A DNA stretch of 64,000 nt from Alistipes sp. (lineage in GTDB: Bacteria; Bacteroidota; Bacteroidia; Bacteroidales; Rikenellaceae): NCBI GenBank assembly GCA_017936685.1, contig JAGBFA010000013.1, forward strand, positions 1 to 64,000, read 5' to 3'. Position 1 is the first letter of the stretch; each line of letters begins with the position of its first letter. Under the pieces are notes generated by a model that searched no databases, was not told the origin of the DNA, and saw only the letters and a program-made list of their open reading frames with translations. The position numbers and the translations under genes were made by a program. Shown in pieces: positions 31,401-61,189 of the stretch.

Positions 31401-31405
31401 TTAAT

Positions 31406-31603
31406 TTTCCGTGAAAAGCGGCATTCTACTGCCGCGCACTCAATTGCCCGAACAGGTAGTACGCTAAGTACAACCTGTCCGGGCAGTTTTCGTTTACGTT
31501 CATTCTATGCACTTTTTCTCGCCGCGGCAAAGCCGAAGTAAACTTCGTTTTGCTCGTCCGGCTTGACGAAAAAGTTGTATAATACCGCTTTTGACGAAAA
31601 ATT
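31406..31603. repeat. Type C repeat (long variant)
   Basis: Ends TTTTCCGTGAAAAGCGGCAT and AATACCGCTTTTGACGAAAAA are inverted repeats. Central hairpin ACAGGT-AGTAC...GTACA-ACCTGT. Carries about 75 extra bases between centre and right end compared with other copies. Confidence 0.75.
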
Positions 31604-31607
31604 GTTT

Positions 31608-31731
31608 CTTTTCCGTGAAAATACCGCATCTGCTTCCGCTCCTCGTCGTTCGCCAATGGGCAGTACAGTCAGTACAGCCCATCGTCTCACTCTGTCGTCG
31701 CGTCGCATATCCGGCATTTTGACGAAAAAGT
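31608..31731. repeat. Type C repeat
   Basis: Same terminal inverted repeats; central hairpin ATGGGC-A-GTAC...GTAC-A-GCCCAT. Confidence 0.75.
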
Positions 31732-31845: not shown

Positions 31846-31961
31846 TGTCATTCTGAGGAGCGGTCGACGACCGCGACGTGAGAATCTCTCTTTTGGTTGA
31901 CATGGGCACTTCCGAAGGCGAGACTCCCACGGTCGGGCATGCCTCCTCCCTCGGAGTGACA
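31846..31961. repeat. Type A palindromic repeat (reversed)
   Basis: TGTCATTCTGAGGAGC ... CTCGGAGTGACA, with side hairpin GCGGTC-GAC-GACCGC. Confidence 0.8.
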
Positions 31962-35103: not shown

Positions 35104-35223
35104 TTTTTCGTGAAAAGCGGCATTCTACTGCCGCGCACTTGCTCGCCCAAATGGGAAGTACGTCAGTACGTCCCATCTGGGCGATCTTCGTTTGCGTTGT
35201 ATAATACCGCTTTTGACGAAAAA
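35104..35223. repeat. Type C repeat
   Basis: TTTTTCGTGAAAAGCGGCAT ... AATACCGCTTTTGACGAAAAA; centre ATGGGA-A-GTAC-GTCA-GTAC-G-TCCCAT. Confidence 0.8.
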
Positions 35224-35246
35224 TCGGGTTGGTGGTTCTTTGGAGG

Positions 35247-35368
35247 TTTTCCGTGAAAAGCGGCATTCTACTGCCGCTCCTTGTCACTCGACAATGGGCA
35301 GTACGACGAGTACAGCCCATCGTCTCGCTCTGTCGTCGCGTTGTATAATACTGCTTTTGACGAAAAAT
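35247..35368. repeat. Type C repeat
   Basis: Same ends; centre ATGGGC-A-GTAC...GTAC-A-GCCCAT. Second of three in tandem. Confidence 0.8.
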
Positions 35369-35489
35369 TTTCCATGAAAAGGCATCATTAGCTTCCGCGC
35401 GCTCGTTCGTCCGAACGGGTAGTACGTCAAGTACAACCCGTCCGTCCTTACATCGTTTGCGTTGCTACTAACGCCTTTTGACGAAAAAT
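35369..35489. repeat. Type C repeat
   Basis: Ends slightly diverged (CATGAAAAGGCATC / GCCTTTTGACGAAAAA, still complementary); centre ACGGGT-AGTAC...GTACA-ACCCGT. Confidence 0.75.
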
Positions 35490-35521
35490 CGGGTTGTGGT
35501 GCTTAGGAGACAATTTCCACC

Positions 35522-35652
35522 GGTCTGTCATTCTGAGTGTAATGAAATGGAACGAAGAATCTGGTTGTAAACGATGTACGTGGTTGAGATGCCCACTCTG
35601 TCATTCTGAGCGCAGCGAAGAATCTGGTTGGGGAAGACATGACCGTTTGACT
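35522..35652. repeat. Two type D repeats
   Basis: Two head-to-tail units beginning CTGTCATTCTGAG and ending GAAGAATCTGGTTG. Confidence 0.6.
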
Positions 35653-35762
35653 TGTCATTCTGAGGAGTGCGGCACGCACGACGTGAGAATCTCTCTTTTG
35701 GACGATAAACGCGCTTCCGACCGCGAGACTCCCACGTCGCCTTGCGGCTCCTCGGAGTGACA
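35653..35762. repeat. Type A palindromic repeat (reversed)
   Basis: TGTCATTCTGAGGAG ... CTCCTCGGAGTGACA with side hairpin GTGCG-GCA-CGCAC. Confidence 0.8.
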
Positions 35763-35872
35763 GACCACCAGCCAACGTCCCACCACGGGACGCGTAACGA
35801 AGTCTGCCACGCCCCACATGGAGCGCGATAAATCGCGCGACCAAAGTCCCCTCCGAGGAGTGACAAGGTGCT
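35763..35872. repeat. Type B repeat, partial and reversed
   Basis: Holds CCACGCCCCACATGGAGCGC and the GCGCGATAAATCGCGC hairpin; the distal ACGGCGTAAGCCGT part is missing. Confidence 0.65.
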
Positions 35873-42460: not shown

Positions 42461-42583
42461 TTTTTTCGTGAAAATACCGCATCTACTTCCGCTCCTTGTC
42501 GTTCGACAATGGGCAGTACACTCAGTACAGCCCATCGTCTCACTCTGTCGTCGCGTTGTATATCCGGCATTTTGACGAAAAAA
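42461..42583. repeat. Type C repeat
   Basis: TTTTTTCGTGAAAATACCGC ... GGCATTTTGACGAAAAA; centre ATGGGC-A-GTAC...GTAC-A-GCCCAT. Confidence 0.78.
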
Positions 42584-51948: not shown

Positions 51949-52068
51949 TTTTTCGTGAAAAGTGGCATTCTGCTGCCGCACCTTGTCGCTCGACAATGGG
52001 CAGTACGTCAGTACAGCCCATCGTCTCGCTCTGTCGTTGCGTTGCATAATACCGCTTTTGACGAAAAA
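51949..52068. repeat. Type C repeat
   Basis: TTTTTCGTGAAAAGTGGCAT ... AATACCGCTTTTGACGAAAAA; centre ATGGGC-A-GTAC-GTCA-GTAC-A-GCCCAT. Confidence 0.8.
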
Positions 52069-52101
52069 GGGGGTAGTGGTGCTTTGGTTGTTTTCCGTGT
52101 C

Positions 52102-52224
52102 TTTTCCGTGAAAAGCGGCATTTTGCTGCCGCTCGCTCCATTATCCGAACGGGTAGTACGTCAAGTACAGCCCGTCCGTCCAATGTTCGTTGCGCGTTGT
52201 ATGATACCGCTTTTGACGAAAAAA
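52102..52224. repeat. Type C repeat
   Basis: Same ends; centre ACGGGT-AGTAC...GTACA-GCCCGT. Confidence 0.8.
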
Positions 52225-52230
52225 TTTTTC

Positions 52231-52350
52231 TTTTCCGTGAAAAGACATCATTTGCTTCCGCTCCTTGTCGCTCAGCAATGGGAAGTACGCCAGTACGTCC
52301 CATCGCTTCGCTCCTGCGTTACGTTGCAACTAATGCCTTTTGACGAAAAA
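52231..52350. repeat. Type C repeat
   Basis: Ends CGTGAAAAGACATC / GCCTTTTGACGAAAAA; centre ATGGGA-A-GTAC-GCCA-GTAC-G-TCCCAT. Third of a tandem set. Confidence 0.78.
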
Positions 52351-52434
52351 GGGGGTAGTGGTGCTTTGGAGGCTATTTCCATCACGCAGTCATTCTGAGT
52401 GAAACGAAGAATCTGTGCGAGGCTATTTCCACCG

Positions 52435-52550
52435 TGTCATTCTGAGGAGCGATTGTAAATCACGACGTGAGAATCTCTGTTTTGATAGACAAACGTGCTC
52501 CGGCTGGCGAGACTCCCACGGTCGGGCATATGCCCTCCCTCGGAGTGACA
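52435..52550. repeat. Type A palindromic repeat (reversed)
   Basis: Outer TGTCATTCTGAGGAGC / CTCGGAGTGACA; side hairpins GCGATT-GTA-AATCAC (one mismatch) and GGGC-ATAT-GCCC. Confidence 0.8.
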
Positions 52551-52655
52551 GAGTGGTCATGTCGTCCCCAGATGTCTCGCATTCGCTCGACATGACGCAG
52601 TGTGTTTTGTCTTTCCCAACCAGATTCTTCACTACACTACGTTCCGTTCAGAATG

Positions 52656-52815
52656 ACAGACCACCTGCCAACGCCCACCACGGGATACGGTAAAAGCCTG
52701 CCACGCCCCACATGGAGCGCGATAAATCGCGCGACAAAAGTCCCCTCCGAGGAGGGGATTTAGGGGAGGGTAAAAACTATATAACGGCGTAAGCCGTAGC
52801 TCTGTGGTCGACATT
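52656..52815. repeat. Type B repeat (reversed, complete)
   Basis: CCACGCCCCACATGGAGCGC, GCGCGATAAATCGCGC hairpin, CCCCTCC/GGAGGGG pair, then ACGGCGTAAGCCGT. Confidence 0.75.
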
Positions 52816-52933
52816 GGTTATGCGTTCTGTGGAACGCGACGTGAGAATCTCTATTGTGGTAGATAAATTCCCACCGCCAAACGCGCTCCCGACCGCGAGA
52901 CTCCCACGTCGCCTGCGGCTCCTCGGAGTGACA
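52816..52933. repeat. Type A palindromic repeat (reversed, left end lost)
   Basis: Side hairpins GCGTTC-TGTG-GAACGC and GCC-TGC-GGC; right end CTCCTCGGAGTGACA. Confidence 0.75.
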
Positions 52934-55650: not shown

Positions 55651-55780
55651 TGTCACTCCGAGGGAGGGCATTGTCCGACCGTGGGAGTCTCGCGGTCGGG
55701 AGTGTGGTTGGTGCGCGGGAAGTTGTCGCCCAAGAGAGAGATTCTCACGTCGCAGTCTATGACTGCTCCTCAGAATGATA
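55651..55780. repeat. Type A palindromic repeat
   Basis: TGTCACTCCGAGGGAGG ... CTCCTCAGAATGA; side hairpins GGGC-ATT-GTCC and GCAGTC-TAT-GACTGC. Confidence 0.78.
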
Positions 55781-55786
55781 ATCAAA

Positions 55787-55950
55787 CGTCGACCACAGAG
55801 CTACGGCTTACGCCGTTATATAATTCTGACCCTCCCCTAACTGCTGCGACAGGCGAGTGCAATCGCTTGCGGATTGCCGAGCCGCCAAAGCAGTCACGAC
55901 GCAAAAAGTCGCGCTGCGACGCGGCGTAAATCCCCTCCTCGGAGGGGAAA
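55787..55950. repeat. Type B repeat interrupted by an extra segment
   Basis: Starts CTACGGCTTACGCCGTTATA as other type B copies, but after CCCTCCCC carries about 90 unrelated bases (55840-55930) before a CCCCTCC/GGAGGGG hairpin. Confidence 0.6.
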
Positions 55951-55954
55951 ACCA

Positions 55955-56111
55955 ATGTCGACCACAGAGTGGCGGCTTACGCCGTTATACAATTCTGACC
56001 CCACCCCAAACCCCTCCCTCGGGAGGGGCTTTTGTCGCGCGATTTATCGCGCTCCATGTGGGGCGTGGCAGGCTTTGTCTTGCGTTCTAAGGTGGTGCGT
56101 TGGCAGGTTGT
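55955..56111. repeat. Type B repeat
   Basis: Near-identical to 1749-1905, including GCGCGATTTATCGCGC and CCATGTGGGGCGTGGCAGGC. Confidence 0.75.
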
Positions 56112-57782: not shown

Positions 57783-59060
57783 ATGCGAAAAGTGTTGTTC
57801 GGTGCCGTTGCGGCAGTTGTCGCGGCGGCGATATGGTTTGTGATGTCGCTGTCGTCCGGCAAGGGCGAGGCTGCTGCGGAGCCGTCGGGTGTCTCTGCGG
57901 CTGAGACGATGAGGCTGCCGCACATTGGATTGCAGCAGGCGGGGTTCGATCCTGCACGACTGGCGTATGTCGACGAGGCTGTGATGCGCTCCATCGACTC
58001 GGGCGATGCACCGGGTGCTGTGCTGTGTATCGTGCGCCGCGGCGGCATAGCCTACCTGCGTGCATACGGCAACAGACAAGTGCTGCCCTCGACGGCGGCC
58101 ATGAGCGAGGATACCGTCTTCGATCTGGCCTCGCTTACGAAGGTCGTGGCCACCAATACGGCCGCCATGCAGCTCGTCGAGCAGGGGCGCCTGCGTTTGG
58201 GCGATAGGGTAGACCGCTATATCGCAGGGTTCGAGGGGTGGTGCAATCCCGACAACAAGCGCGACACGACCCATATCCGCATCATCGATTTGATGACCCA
58301 CACGTCGGGCCTGCCGGCGTATGCCCGGCCGGAAACGGTCGCGGCGGAGTATCCCGACCTCTGTTTTCCCGACCGCGACGCGACGATGGAGTATATCGCA
58401 CATTGTCCGCGCCAGTCGCCGCCGCGCGAGGAGTATCGTTACAGCTGCCTGAACTATGTGACGCTGCAACATATCGTGGAGCGGGTCTCGGGCGAATCGC
58501 TCGACAGCTATGCCGCCGAACACATATTCCGTCCGTTGGGCATGACGGATACGGGCTATCTGCCCGATGCCGGACTTGCCGCGCGTTGTGCACCGACGGT
58601 TGTCGACCGCGACGAGGGGCTGTTGTGCGGCGTTGTGCAGGATCCGCTCGCGCGCCGTCTGTGCGGCGGTGTCTCGGGCAATGCCGGACTATTCTCCACG
58701 GCCGAAGATCTGGCCGTGTTCGTCGAGATGATGCTCTCCGGCGGCGAGCACTGCGGCGTTCGCATACTGTCGCCGTTGGCGGTAAAGGCCGTTGCGACCG
58801 TGCCGCGCGGCTTCGAGCAGTTCGGCCGCACGCTCGGCTGGGAGAGTTATGCGGGCTATACGACCACGGCCGGCGATCTGCTGTCGCCGTCGGCATACGG
58901 CCACACGGGCTTCACCGGCACGAGCATCGTCATCGATCCGCAGCTCGATCTGGGCATCGTCCTGCTTGCCAATCGCGTCCACCCCTCGTCGACGGGCAGC
59001 GTGGCACGCATGCGCTCGGAGGTGGCCAACGCCGTGGCCGGTGCTATCGAGGAGTTGTAG
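57783..59060 (+). CDS. Exported serine hydrolase of the beta-lactamase (AmpC/EstB) family
   Basis: 425 residues. N-terminal membrane/signal segment (VLFGAVAAVVAAAIWFVM), then class C-like penicillin-binding fold: catalytic SxxK as DLASLTKVVATN (about 117), YxN-type YSCLNYVTLQHI, and C-terminal GHTGFTGTSIVIDP in the HxG position. Such proteins are esterases or D-aminopeptidases more often than lactamases. Ends in a 24-base sequence that is repeated exactly 2.1 kb downstream. Confidence 0.92.
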   Translation: MRKVLFGAVAAVVAAAIWFVMSLSSGKGEAAAEPSGVSAAETMRLPHIGLQQAGFDPARLAYVDEAVMRSIDSGDAPGAVLCIVRRGGIAYLRAYGNRQVLPSTAAMSEDTVFDLASLTKVVATNTAAMQLVEQGRLRLGDRVDRYIAGFEGWCNPDNKRDTTHIRIIDLMTHTSGLPAYARPETVAAEYPDLCFPDRDATMEYIAHCPRQSPPREEYRYSCLNYVTLQHIVERVSGESLDSYAAEHIFRPLGMTDTGYLPDAGLAARCAPTVVDRDEGLLCGVVQDPLARRLCGGVSGNAGLFSTAEDLAVFVEMMLSGGEHCGVRILSPLAVKAVATVPRGFEQFGRTLGWESYAGYTTTAGDLLSPSAYGHTGFTGTSIVIDPQLDLGIVLLANRVHPSSTGSVARMRSEVANAVAGAIEEL

Positions 59061-59061
59061 A
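59038..59061 (+). repeat. Left 24-bp direct repeat (end of serine hydrolase gene)
   Basis: Identical to 61166-61189. It covers the last codons and stop of the hydrolase plus one base. Candidate attachment-site copy. Confidence 0.8.
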
Positions 59062-59090
59062 AATGCATTGTTCGAATTATAAAAATTTAT

Positions 59091-59109
59091 TATTCGGCGT
59101 AGCCGAATA
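59091..59109. repeat. Short perfect inverted repeat inside the island's left edge
   Basis: TATTCGGC-GTA-GCCGAATA, 30 bases inside the left direct repeat. Confidence 0.6.
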
Positions 59110-59127
59110 TACTTCGTCTTGAAAAAT

Positions 59128-59147
59128 GCAAGCAAGCTTGCTTTTTT
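59128..59147 (+). terminator. Terminator after the serine hydrolase
   Basis: GCAAG-CAAG-CTTGC followed by six T. Short stem but clean U-tract. Confidence 0.6.
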
Positions 59148-59205
59148 CTATCGACTTATTCGTATATTTGCATAGTTGTTTGTTAAAATATTTGCCTATG
59201 AAGCA

Positions 59206-59234
59206 TTGACGTATGTCGGTACATACATTATAAA
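59206..59234 (+). promoter_or_regulatory. Promoter-like TTGACG-N17-TATAAA with spacer palindrome
   Basis: TTGACG (59206-59211), 17 nt, TATAAA (59229-59234). The spacer contains GTATGT-CGGT-ACATAC. Predicted start near 59241, where the structured region begins. A Bacteroidetes-type box TATATTTG also lies upstream at 59163-59170. Confidence 0.5.
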
Positions 59235-59241
59235 ATATTGG

Positions 59242-59417
59242 AAATAAGCGTTTAGCTTGTATTCTTGTTCTTGAAACTTAGACACTTTCATTGACAACCA
59301 AGAGTAAAGCGATGACGCTCACGCCGTTTGGCGTGGGCTTTACTCATTGTATTTGGTTGTCAGGTAGTCTAAGACCTCAAGAACGAATCCAGGAGTTTTG
59401 TCCGCGCTATTTTTTTG
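59242..59417 (+). ncRNA. Candidate structured RNA, long bulged hairpin (6S-like shape)
   Basis: Paired arms from outside in: AAAT(A)AGCG / CGCTATTT; an internal loop of 10 and 16 bases; ATTC / GAAT; GTTCTTGA / TCAAGAAC; CTTAGAC / GTCTAAG; TGACAACCAA / TTGGTTGTCA (59292-59301 / 59353-59362); AGTAAAGC / GCTTTACT; CACGCC-GTTT-GGCGTG. It ends in eight T (59410-59417). About 50 base pairs in one 176-nt rod with a central bubble and a terminator-like end recall 6S RNA, but I cannot confirm the family; a long 5' leader of the next gene is the alternative. Confidence 0.5.
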
Positions 59418-59478
59418 TATGTATATCAATGATCCTGGACAATGTGATAAATTATGTGTTTCAGTTAAATCTATGATT

Positions 59479-59847
59479 ATGAAGAAACTTTTTATTTGCA
59501 TAGGTGTAATTTCATTGTCGGCTTATTCTGTCGGTGCGCATATGGTCGGTGAACCGCCCGTCAGACTCGGTGACCGCTGCGAGAAGAACGGCCAATACGG
59601 AAGAGTGGTCGAGAAAACTTACTCGAATGACAATAATACGAAATCGCGTGATAACAGTTCATGGAATGTCGGCGGAGGTGCCAAGGGCGAGGCGAGTACG
59701 CCTGTCAGAACACTCTCCGGCAGTCTGTCGGTACAAGGCGGTTACCAGAAAGGAGTTGCCTCGGAAGAACAAAATGGTAGAAGCGAGACCACAAAAGGCT
59801 ATGAATGCGACACCTCTGAGAAGAGTAATTGGACTGTTGTTAAATAG
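59479..59847 (+). CDS. Small exported protein of unknown function
   Basis: 122 residues from MKKLFICIGVISL. Signal peptide with likely cleavage after SVGA. Mature part is polar, rich in Ser/Thr/Gly/Asn (SRDNSSWNVGGGAKGEASTPVRTLSGSLSVQGGYQKG), with two cysteines (CEKNGQYG, YECDTSEK). In-frame ATG at 59473 is an alternative start. First of five small exported proteins inside the direct-repeat-bounded block. No family recognised. Confidence 0.72.
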   Translation: MKKLFICIGVISLSAYSVGAHMVGEPPVRLGDRCEKNGQYGRVVEKTYSNDNNTKSRDNSSWNVGGGAKGEASTPVRTLSGSLSVQGGYQKGVASEEQNGRSETTKGYECDTSEKSNWTVVK

Positions 59848-59853
59848 AAAATT

Positions 59854-59991
59854 ATGAACAATAGGGAAATACTTATGGCGGTAGTTGCTGCTGCGGTTGT
59901 GGCGATGTTCGCAACATCGTGCAATCGGGTGGTTTATGATAATTTCAGAGATGACGCATCATGGTACCATACCTATGAGAGAAATATTTGA
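59854..59991 (+). CDS. 45-residue lipoprotein, copy 1
   Basis: Sequence MNNREILMAVVAAAVVAMF-ATSC-NRVVYDNFRDDASWYHTYERNI. The lipobox ATSC places the lipidated cysteine at residue 23, leaving a mature lipopeptide of only 23 residues. Six bases after the preceding stop. Its near-copy follows at 60024: signal and VxxA-rich helix almost identical, mature parts both with FYD/VYD and GFR/NFR. Function unknown; colicin-lysis-type lipoproteins have similar size, but there is no bacteriocin gene here. Confidence 0.72.
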   Translation: MNNREILMAVVAAAVVAMFATSCNRVVYDNFRDDASWYHTYERNI

Positions 59992-60023
59992 ATTGTTGTT
60001 AAATGATTAAAATTTAGAAGATT

Positions 60024-60161
60024 ATGAATAAGAGAAGAGTATTTATGATTGTAGTGGCCGCGGCTGTCGTGGCTATGTTCGCAACATCGTGCAGTCAGGA
60101 GTTTTATGATGGATTCAGAGAGGGCTGGAACTCTACCGCTCCCGAACATCTCAGATATTAG
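60024..60161 (+). CDS. 45-residue lipoprotein, copy 2
   Basis: MNKRRVFMIVVAAAVVAMF-ATSC-SQEFYDGFREGWNSTAPEHLRY. Same length, same lipobox position (C23) and same start context (AGAAGATTATGAA-like; copy 1 AAATTATGAA) as copy 1: a tandem duplication. Nine bases before the next start codon, so probably one operon. Confidence 0.72.
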   Translation: MNKRRVFMIVVAAAVVAMFATSCSQEFYDGFREGWNSTAPEHLRY

Positions 60162-60170
60162 CCTCCGATT

Positions 60171-60662
60171 ATGAAGACGATCTTAATGACCATTCTCCTG
60201 TTCTTGTTGACGGGCGGCTATGTTGCTGCGCAGAATCTCGACAGATGGGCAGACCGTAAAGTCCCGACCGAGTACACCGGATCGAACAGATCCGGCGGCG
60301 GAGACTTGGAAATATCGGTGGTTTCTATCGATAGACAAGGCTGGCACAAATGGCGCGATAATATTTATGTCACCAATAGGACGGGTGAGGATATGGTGTT
60401 TCAAGTCATATTCCGTATTGCCAGAACATCTGTCGTATCGCGCAAGAATAAGCTCGGTTCGAAACACTCTCCGTGGTTCCTGCTGACCAAAGTCGTCCCT
60501 AACGGAACATTGAATCAGCCGTTTGTCACGGACGATGATTTGAGAGATGCATTGGCGTACTCCGATTTCGGCGAATGGTTCTCCAAACTCTGGAAAAAAT
60601 CGGGACTGTCATGGGGAATAGAACTCGATGAATATCAATGTAAATCGTTAAAATCATTCTAA
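60171..60662 (+). CDS. Exported protein of unknown function
   Basis: 163 residues. Signal peptide 1-20 (LLFLLTGGYVAAQ). Mature part begins NLDRWADRKVPTEYTGSNRSGGGDLEISVVSIDRQGWHKWRDNIYVTNRTGEDMVFQVIFRIAR, a beta-rich pattern that might be Ig-like, followed by a basic stretch and a helical end. No domain recognised. Starts nine bases after the small lipoprotein. Confidence 0.75.
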   Translation: MKTILMTILLFLLTGGYVAAQNLDRWADRKVPTEYTGSNRSGGGDLEISVVSIDRQGWHKWRDNIYVTNRTGEDMVFQVIFRIARTSVVSRKNKLGSKHSPWFLLTKVVPNGTLNQPFVTDDDLRDALAYSDFGEWFSKLWKKSGLSWGIELDEYQCKSLKSF

Positions 60663-60672
60663 TTATTGCCAA

Positions 60673-61005
60673 ATGAAGAAGCTATTGCTTATATTATCGG
60701 TGATGTTCGTTTGTGTGACGGGTTATGCCGAGAAACGCGTTAGGGTTTCACAATCCGCCAACAACTATGTGACAATCGACAAAGAGTCGGTATCTGGCCG
60801 CGAAAAGGTGTGCGTCAGAGCCGATCATAAAGAGTTCAATCATGATATCGTCGTCGATGTCGCCGTTTACGAGATAAATGGCTGGGAGGAGACTCTTATA
60901 GACACAAAACGTTTTGTAATACGCAAATACTCTATTTCGGACGAGGCCATGATCGGCAACGGCAAGAATTACAGGGTGTCGATCGTAAGCGCGGAGTTGA
61001 AGTAG
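60673..61005 (+). CDS. Exported beta-rich protein of unknown function
   Basis: 110 residues. Signal peptide 1-19 (LSVMFVCVTGYAE). Mature domain of about 90 residues with alternating strands (KRVRVSQSANNYVTIDKESVSGREKVCVRADHKEFNHDIVVDVAVYEING). Ten bases after the preceding gene and followed by a strong terminator, so it closes the small-protein operon. Confidence 0.76.
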   Translation: MKKLLLILSVMFVCVTGYAEKRVRVSQSANNYVTIDKESVSGREKVCVRADHKEFNHDIVVDVAVYEINGWEETLIDTKRFVIRKYSISDEAMIGNGKNYRVSIVSAELK

Positions 61006-61106
61006 GACGGGCATGCGTGAGTTCAATGTATGAACCGTATCGACGCCGGTTGTATGTAATGCGTGATGACCGGCATTGACGCGAACTTTGTTAAGATACT
61101 TATTCG

Positions 61107-61141
61107 AAAGTATGGCGATTAGAAAATCGCCATACTTTTTT
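61107..61141 (+). terminator. Strong rho-independent terminator of the small-protein operon
   Basis: Perfect 14-base stem AAAGTATGGCGATT / AATCGCCATACTTT, loop AGAA, T-run to 61141. Reads as a terminator in both directions. Confidence 0.93.
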
Positions 61142-61165
61142 GTTGGATAGCCGGACCGGAAATTA

Positions 61166-61189
61166 CCGGTGCTATCGAGGAGTTGTAGA
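61166..61189 (+). repeat. Right 24-bp direct repeat (copy of hydrolase gene end)
   Basis: Exact copy of 59038-59061 with its TAG in place but no gene body before it. Bounds the 2.1-kb block on the right. Confidence 0.8.

Follow-up and report, generated by a model that had tools for sequence, protein, structure and literature searches.

A widespread structured RNA precedes an accessory operon of small exported proteins in Alistipes

The first 64,000 nucleotides of contig JAGBFA010000013.1 of an Alistipes sp. (GenBank assembly GCA_017936685.1), the whole stretch analyzed here and hereafter called the window, carry an AT-rich block of 2.1 kb (59038-61189) between a serine hydrolase gene and a tRNA-tuf cluster. 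It is an accessory operon: genes for small exported proteins stand behind a member of a widespread family of structured RNAs. An earlier note on this DNA had drawn attention to the 24-bp direct repeat at the borders of the block and to site-specific integration as its origin; the main find at the locus is the structured RNA family, not the repeat. What the author of that note could not see is that the RNA is one of nine matches at E <= 1e-6 in this genome. Comparison of its copies makes it very probable that the RNA is a leader of the genes that follow. That the leader is also a switch, i.e., an attenuator-like cis-regulatory element, is probable to a lesser degree and is the reading favored here.

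A structured RNA family and its helices

The RNA and its parts are arranged as follows.

59163..59170, +: TATATTTG, -7 promoter element of the RNA, Bacteroidota type (motif match)
59178..59420, +: structured leader RNA; covariance-model core 59241-59420, 5' end inferred from the promoter
from 59194, +: conserved GCCTATGA, 5' of the RNA core
59211-59226, +: 5' hairpin ahead of the RNA core
59246..59258, +: helix 1, small hairpin AAGC..GCTT, compensatory changes in 4 of 5 pairs
59317..59338, +: apical hairpin GCTCACGCC/GGCGTGGGC; its 3' arm, 59330-59338, has the tail as alternative partner
59363..59376, +: GGT..ACC mini-stem, its loop being the 3' strand of helix 3; 1 of 3 pairs covaries
59400..59417, +: tail GTCCGCGC, then a U-run; possible pairing with 59330-59338, as a pseudoknot or terminator-like helix

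The earlier note had proposed both the promoter and a candidate structured RNA, and both hold: the motif TATATTTG is found at 59163-59170, and the RNA folds with z = -5.2 against 100 shuffles. An alignment of 84 RNA matches with 83 distinct sequences (A3) has 96.3% of its cells paired and compensatory changes in 37 of the 41 proposed pairs. Its covariation score of 0.658 compares with 0.202 for shuffles and at most 0.10 for slid controls, and 0 of 500 shuffles reach the observed value. In helix 3, 99.8% of cells are paired, and each of its seven pairs has changes on both sides.

A3 was fitted to a model with helices 1-5, and the tail pairing and the mini-stem lie outside that model. The mini-stem, GGY..RCC around the 3' strand of helix 3, has two nearly invariant pairs and a third that is U-A, C-G or U-G; it is a possible second pseudoknot. 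In 82 of 84 sequences, the apical 3' arm can pair with the tail at -8 kcal/mol or better. The mean for true partners, -12.3, compares with -6.7 for shuffled letters and -11.2 for permuted partners, and none of 5000 permutations did as well. Counted by columns, this pairing is 91.4% formed and compensatory in 5 of 8 pairs. The apical hairpin and the tail helix are mutually exclusive and similar in computed strength (mean -13.4 versus -12.3), and a U-run (at least 6 U in 8, within the last 22 nt) is present in 77 of 84 sequences. At the level of sequence, two marks of an attenuator are found here: a conserved structure with compensatory changes, and exclusive helices, one of them before a U-run.

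Searches with blastn and the block RNA gave matches in 27 of 61 genomes (genome tallies, here and below, count the window's own genome). Run against genomes of the genus, a covariance model built from 18 copies matched 168 of 180; at the level of the order, it matched 107 of 295 genomes (in 74 of 184 genera), and at that of the phylum 46 of 395. Besides its nine good matches, the window's genome holds two weaker matches and a pair of antisense echoes. A fuller scan of eight genomes counted 6-34 matches in each, with antisense echoes left in; the 34, which may include such echoes, belong to a genome of about 1.7 Mb. At least 118 stretches share a 17-mer with the RNA, and 80 of them were made into loci, a sample that over-represents one sequence type because it was picked by that 17-mer.

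The 4227 covariance models of Rfam release 15 gave no credible match to the window (E up to 5) or to 12 relatives (E up to 0.5); four matches in the window at E up to 5 were far below their thresholds and were rejected. In plasmids and phages, blastn found no match to the RNA. Two patterns led to 13 loci in viral contigs, four of which match the RNA model at E <= 1e-7. Tyrosine-integrase-like genes are found about 0.3-1.7 kb from the copies at L404, L402 and L407, which seem to sit in prophages or other integrated elements; L402 equals L407 in sequence. No published description of this RNA was found, supplements and most subscription journals being outside the search, and the family is apparently both large and undescribed.

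Promoters and genes around the RNA

The motif TAnnTTTG, which we take to be the Bacteroidota -7 promoter motif family, occurs between -110 and -20 of the RNA in 37 of 69 copies of one set and 36 of 57 of another; windows further up have it in 1-3 and 1-6 copies, respectively. It is found in none of 129 gaps over the 60 nt behind the RNA. At the level of motifs, the RNA thus lies between promoter and gene as a leader does. It has its own -7 element, stands 5' of the genes and leaves a gap free of further promoter motifs; the simplest view is therefore that transcription from its promoter reads through into the genes.

Cargo was scored as an open reading frame (ORF) with a signal peptide or lipobox starting within 150 nt behind the RNA, with control windows of the same size. 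The test used 64 of 75 sense-strand Bacteroidales model matches (E up to 2.7e-7), namely those with 350 nt on both sides, and 68 members of a genus set of 69, made up of 60 of 86 matches chosen from five genomes, eight further copies of the window's genome and the window itself. In Bacteroidales, 52 of 64 loci have such cargo, versus 1/64 upstream, 2/64 antisense and 6/46 further down (Fisher p 3e-21); the genus gives 41 of 68, versus 7/68, 4/68 and 5/65, respectively (p 9e-10). In the window's own genome, all nine copies at E <= 1e-6 are followed by an exported ORF within 150 nt. Set against the control windows, these counts therefore strengthen the leader reading. By a coarser, earlier cut, 39 of 49 exported genes in Bacteroidales and 35 of 37 in the genus begin 20-110 nt behind the RNA.

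The first genes are diverse, 104 proteins falling into 73 sequence clusters. Among 43 scanned, BspA-type leucine-rich repeats (4), lipocalin-like proteins (3), PEGA (2), FGE-sulfatase (1) and BACON (1) were recognized. At 19 loci read in more distant Bacteroidia, the RNA precedes SusC/TonB-type receptors or other genes. At L301, L303, L309, L310, L312 and L317, a small regulator-like gene lies divergently 5' of the RNA, with a SusC/TonB-type receptor behind in some. At L269 (weak) and L338 (better), a model match is followed immediately by a small helix-turn-helix gene (..ENLYQIKRGN..), possibly for a regulator linked to the RNA. An RNA subfamily with the promoter TATCTTTG and the tail TTTGCCCGC before the U-run is mostly without a clear gene behind it (L357, L358, L360-L362 and L364 in G071; L375, L378 and L379 in G196) and may be a free small RNA.

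The accessory block and its 24-bp repeat

The remaining features of the block are listed below; G075 is a relative that shares it.

59038..59061, +: left copy of the 24-bp repeat, the last 23 nt of the serine hydrolase gene including its stop, plus 1 nt
59479..59847, +: gene 1, 122 amino acids, predicted exported, signal peptide MKKLFICIGVISLSAYSVGA
59854..59991, +: gene 2, 45-amino-acid lipoprotein, tandem copy of gene 3
60024..60161, +: gene 3, 45-amino-acid lipoprotein (..FATSCSQEFYDGFREGWN..), single copy in G075
60171..60662, +: gene 4, 163 amino acids, predicted exported, in the window's genome and G075
60673..61005, +: gene 5, 110 amino acids, predicted exported, beta-rich by low-confidence prediction
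61107..61144, +: intrinsic terminator of the operon, a 14-nt perfect hairpin (61107-61138) and then T's
61166..61189, +: right copy of the 24-bp repeat, followed by an AT-rich stretch and the tRNA-Thr region

On the left, the serine hydrolase gene (57783-59060) belongs to a beta-lactamase-fold family according to a family search; the surrounding genes, read from the ORF list, are kbl, the hydrolase, tRNAs (the first read as tRNA-Thr) and tuf. Much of the earlier description of the block stood: its five small exported-protein ORFs (signal peptide or lipobox judged by eye), its terminator, found as a 14-nt perfect hairpin plus T's, and its AT-richness, with a GC content of 43.4% against 60.5% in the two left-hand genes and 52.3% on the right-hand side.

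Genes 1-5 have no credible family in Pfam, NCBIfam or PADLOC, and a comparison of the five proteins with PHROGs gave two weak matches only (E 0.01 and 0.07). Gene 4, which occurs in 2 of 180 genus genomes (the window's own and G075), has no sequence match in the PDB and none in phages; predicted structures are poor, with a mean pLDDT of 46 for gene 4 and 56.6 for gene 5. Genes 2 and 3 are tandem duplicates (59854-59988 and 60024-60158) of one 45-amino-acid lipoprotein gene, with 107 nt at 78% identity. A profile search with this lipoprotein returned few relatives (best E 7e-7, the rest 0.02-0.35) from a sample that is biased because its loci were mostly picked for the RNA. Weak relatives with an F..G[FY]..G[WY]-like end occur in the RNA-led loci L010, L064, L026 and L220.

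The tRNA-Thr/tuf locus was retrieved from 20 relatives, eight of which keep the hydrolase beside tRNA-Thr. The block is present in one of these eight (G075) and absent from seven. It is therefore accessory, as the mobility idea of the earlier note implied, and its presence in all relatives, which that note had named as grounds for abandoning the idea, is not what is seen. In G075, the RNA has 96.3% nucleotide identity and genes 1, 3, 4 and 5 have 84-91% amino acid identity; there is one 45-amino-acid gene only. Stop codons interrupt gene 4 there (L242 1527-2015), and because of them this cargo seems to be decaying in G075. Another relative, G190, lacks the block though it is slightly closer by kbl (90.7% at the nucleotide level versus 88.8% for G075). 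Since the divergence of the block from G075 (block genes 83.7-90.2%, RNA 96.3%) resembles that of kbl (88.8%), the block has probably been long resident in the lineage, G190 having lost it, or else the move is an old one.

Both copies of the 24-mer CCGGTGCTATCGAGGAGTTGTAGA, at 59038-59061 and 61166-61189, are exact, as claimed. A match of this length within 2.2 kb lies far outside what chance would give (a simple 4^-24 estimate puts it at about 1e-8). Direct repeats at both borders, the left one including a gene's 3' end, are what an integrated element would show. With up to 3 mismatches allowed, the 24-mer has no third place in the window's genome, whose assembly is 88.8% complete, and occurs in 2 of 179 other genus genomes, once each and with 3 mismatches. 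An exact search found it absent from viral contigs. As that note had stated, no recombinase lies inside the block; none is found among its ORFs or the adjoining genes. The other exact repeats of at least 24 nt in the window (13 pairs) all belong to dispersed repeat families. These are intergenic and REP-like, with exact copies of 24-70 nt at 1655-1871, 31405-31703, 31917-31940, 35109-35841, 42522-42556, 52010-52914 and 55675-56078, and are unrelated to the present finding.

A decayed second hydrolase copy was the alternative origin offered for the right repeat. The right copy is not the end of a long decayed hydrolase because the 176 nt to its left show no hydrolase homology above shuffles (156 of 300 score as high). 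In G075, the left and right copies agree at only 16 of 24 positions, and the right-hand sequence is homologous to that of the window; between the two genomes, the left copies differ at 5/24 and the right copies at 7/24, while the window's two copies are identical. If the doubling is as old as the shared block, the identity of the window's copies calls for some homogenizing event in the window's lineage. In three of five block-free outgroups (L244, L252 and L258), an AT-rich stretch ending in GGTAT lies 18-39 nt past the hydrolase stop, before the tRNA; in L243 such a stretch is 322 nt from the stop, and in L259 a near GGTAT stands outside any AT-rich stretch. The surroundings of the right copy thus resemble those in which the hydrolase gene ends in some relatives that lack the block, and the simplest reading would place the block inside an old hydrolase-tRNA spacer, with the hydrolase end doubled. 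The proposed comparison with an empty site found no relative with a single copy cleanly joined to 61190, G190 having 92 other nt there. We claim no scar in G190, because the right side was at shuffle level (best alignments reached by 184 and 266 of 500 shuffles, versus 4 and 6 of 500 on the left) and the alignments fell on the promoter rather than the border. Among 65 RNA loci of the genus set, just two have a direct repeat longer than the control maximum (17 in 416): that of the window, with 24 nt, and another with 40 nt, whose repeat resembles the dispersed ones.

Two explanations of the repeat were weighed. In one, the block would be a mobile unit integrated site-specifically at the 3' end of the hydrolase gene, with the repeat as attL/attR and a recombinase acting in trans. 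The gene end contained in an exact repeat and the accessory distribution of the block point that way, as does a repeat that is perfect despite the divergence between species (5/24, 7/24), which would fit recent excision and re-entry, or gene conversion; three of the four RNA copies in viral contigs are also near a tyrosine-integrase-like gene (read by eye; two are the same sequence). However, there is no recombinase, the site is not re-used, 63 of 65 RNA loci are without a comparable repeat and the right copy is degenerate in G075; moreover, block and kbl diverge similarly from G075, and for this reason there is no sign of recent transfer. The site-specific integration of the earlier note is thus not borne out, and we consider it improbable. 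In the other explanation, which we hold to be evenly balanced, the repeat would be a local accident, due to repair or to slippage in replication, that gene conversion has preserved or restored and that is silent on how the operon arrived. Its one-off occurrence at this locus and its degeneration in G075 (16/24) favor such an accident, yet a random duplication hardly explains a repeat at both borders of an accessory block. This explanation is confined to the repeat and leaves the leader reading of the RNA untouched. Overall, the 24-bp repeat is best regarded as a separate, lineage-specific local event, site-specific integration being possible but unproven.

Leader, switch and rival readings

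The conserved structure, the order of promoter, RNA and gene, and the exported cargo are established by comparison of sequences; the switch goes a step further. In the mechanism that we favor, the RNA would act in cis. When the apical 3' arm GGCGUGGGC pairs within its hairpin, the genes would be read through; when GGCGUGGGC pairs with the tail GUCCGCGC directly before the U-run, a terminator or roadblock would form and the genes would be off. A signal, perhaps a ligand, a protein or a trans-RNA, would choose between the two pairings. With the same leader re-used before many unrelated exported proteins, the outcome would be a regulon of up to some 30 units per genome.

Several observations weigh against this proposal. 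A3 favors helices 1-5 because it was fitted to a model that contains them, neither the covariation tests nor the permutation test of the arm-tail pairing corrects for the relatedness of the sequences, and in 41 of 83 sequences the outermost arm-tail pair does not form. A loop as large as that closed by the tail helix, about 60 nt, is unusual for an intrinsic terminator, and this helix may be a stable pseudoknot instead. On the side of the cargo, the signal-peptide rule is a home-made heuristic that fires on 25-30% of control ORFs of at least 80 amino acids (49/193, 88/294). No exported ORF lies within 150 nt at 27 of 68 genus and 12 of 64 Bacteroidales loci, and 6 and 5 of these, respectively, have no ORF at all in that range; some of these loci are solo copies from genomes rich in the RNA. 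At loci from more distant Bacteroidia, it is common for the gene that follows to lie 200 nt or more away or not to be exported.

Because some copies have no gene behind them, the RNA might be a free small-RNA gene with its own promoter and terminator and many paralogues, regulating in trans, the genes behind it being reached by leak-through or merely neighbors. The solo copies in G071 and G196 and the U-run at the 3' end in 77 of 84 sequences would fit such a gene, and multicopy trans-acting small RNAs (FopS) are known in Bacteroides (PMC11697453). Against this stand the exported genes close behind the RNA in 52 of 64 Bacteroidales loci and the lack of a promoter motif in the gap, which leave a free small RNA rather unlikely for the family as a whole. 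Up to 34 matches per genome (antisense echoes possibly among them) and the existence of solo copies would also suit a dispersed DNA repeat of the MITE or REP kind that folds by coincidence. This is very improbable in view of compensatory changes in 37 of 41 pairs, the promoter motif on the 5' side, the orientation toward exported-protein genes and the 63 of 65 loci without a flanking exact direct repeat beyond the control range (repeats of at least 9 nt searched).

The leader resembles riboswitch and attenuation leaders in lying behind its own promoter, in its conserved structure, in two helices that compete for one strand and in a U-run before the gene. Unlike them, it has no known ligand or metabolic gene theme and serves many unrelated exported proteins per genome. 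In operons with NusG paralogues (UpxY, LoaP, RfaH), read-through of the leader decides the expression of surface operons; the control of surface operons by leader read-through is a likeness, whereas the block encodes no such regulator. We also considered dCas12f-sigma guide RNAs, on which a literature search gave nothing usable.

FopS/GibS small RNAs of Bacteroides likewise form a multicopy Bacteroidota RNA family with sequence also seen in phage. By their description (PMC11697453), FopS consists of a single-stranded 5' stretch and a terminator hairpin, is mostly intergenic or antisense and is deposited in Rfam; that description sets it apart from the present RNA, which has about 180-240 nt, several helices and pseudoknot-type pairing, lies before genes and matches no Rfam model credibly. 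Structured RNAs of the phylum were also found by comparison in the work of Weinberg et al. 2010, which names 6S-flavo, Flavo-1, Bacteroidales-1, Bacteroides-1 and Bacteroid-trp (PMC2864571). Those of its motifs that have Rfam models do not match the present RNA; the GUCCY-hairpin, which has no Rfam number in the table of that paper, fell outside the comparison. Fremin and Bhatt 2021 reported thousands of unnamed candidate RNAs of gut bacteria, one of them mostly in Alistipes and 508 directly upstream of genes (PMC8040213). Those of its named HMP2 candidates that entered the comparison have 38-132 bp and other neighbors than the present RNA; its full supplementary lists were outside the comparison, and overlap with them is possible.

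More tentatively, and with doubt outweighing confidence, the family might be an undescribed class of switch RNA with two pseudoknot-type pairings that governs a genome-wide regulon of surface and secreted proteins across Bacteroidota. Promoter and RNA would then form a portable 5' module behind which cargos are exchanged, and the 24-bp repeat in the window would record one such exchange.

To conclude, the abundance of this RNA in its order and within single genomes, its strong covariation and its lack of an Rfam entry would make it an unusually abundant orphan leader RNA. The competing-helix model is directly testable by two-sided mutation. The family would offer a handle on the control of many small exported lipoproteins, BspA-type leucine-rich-repeat proteins and lipocalin-like proteins, most of them of unknown function.

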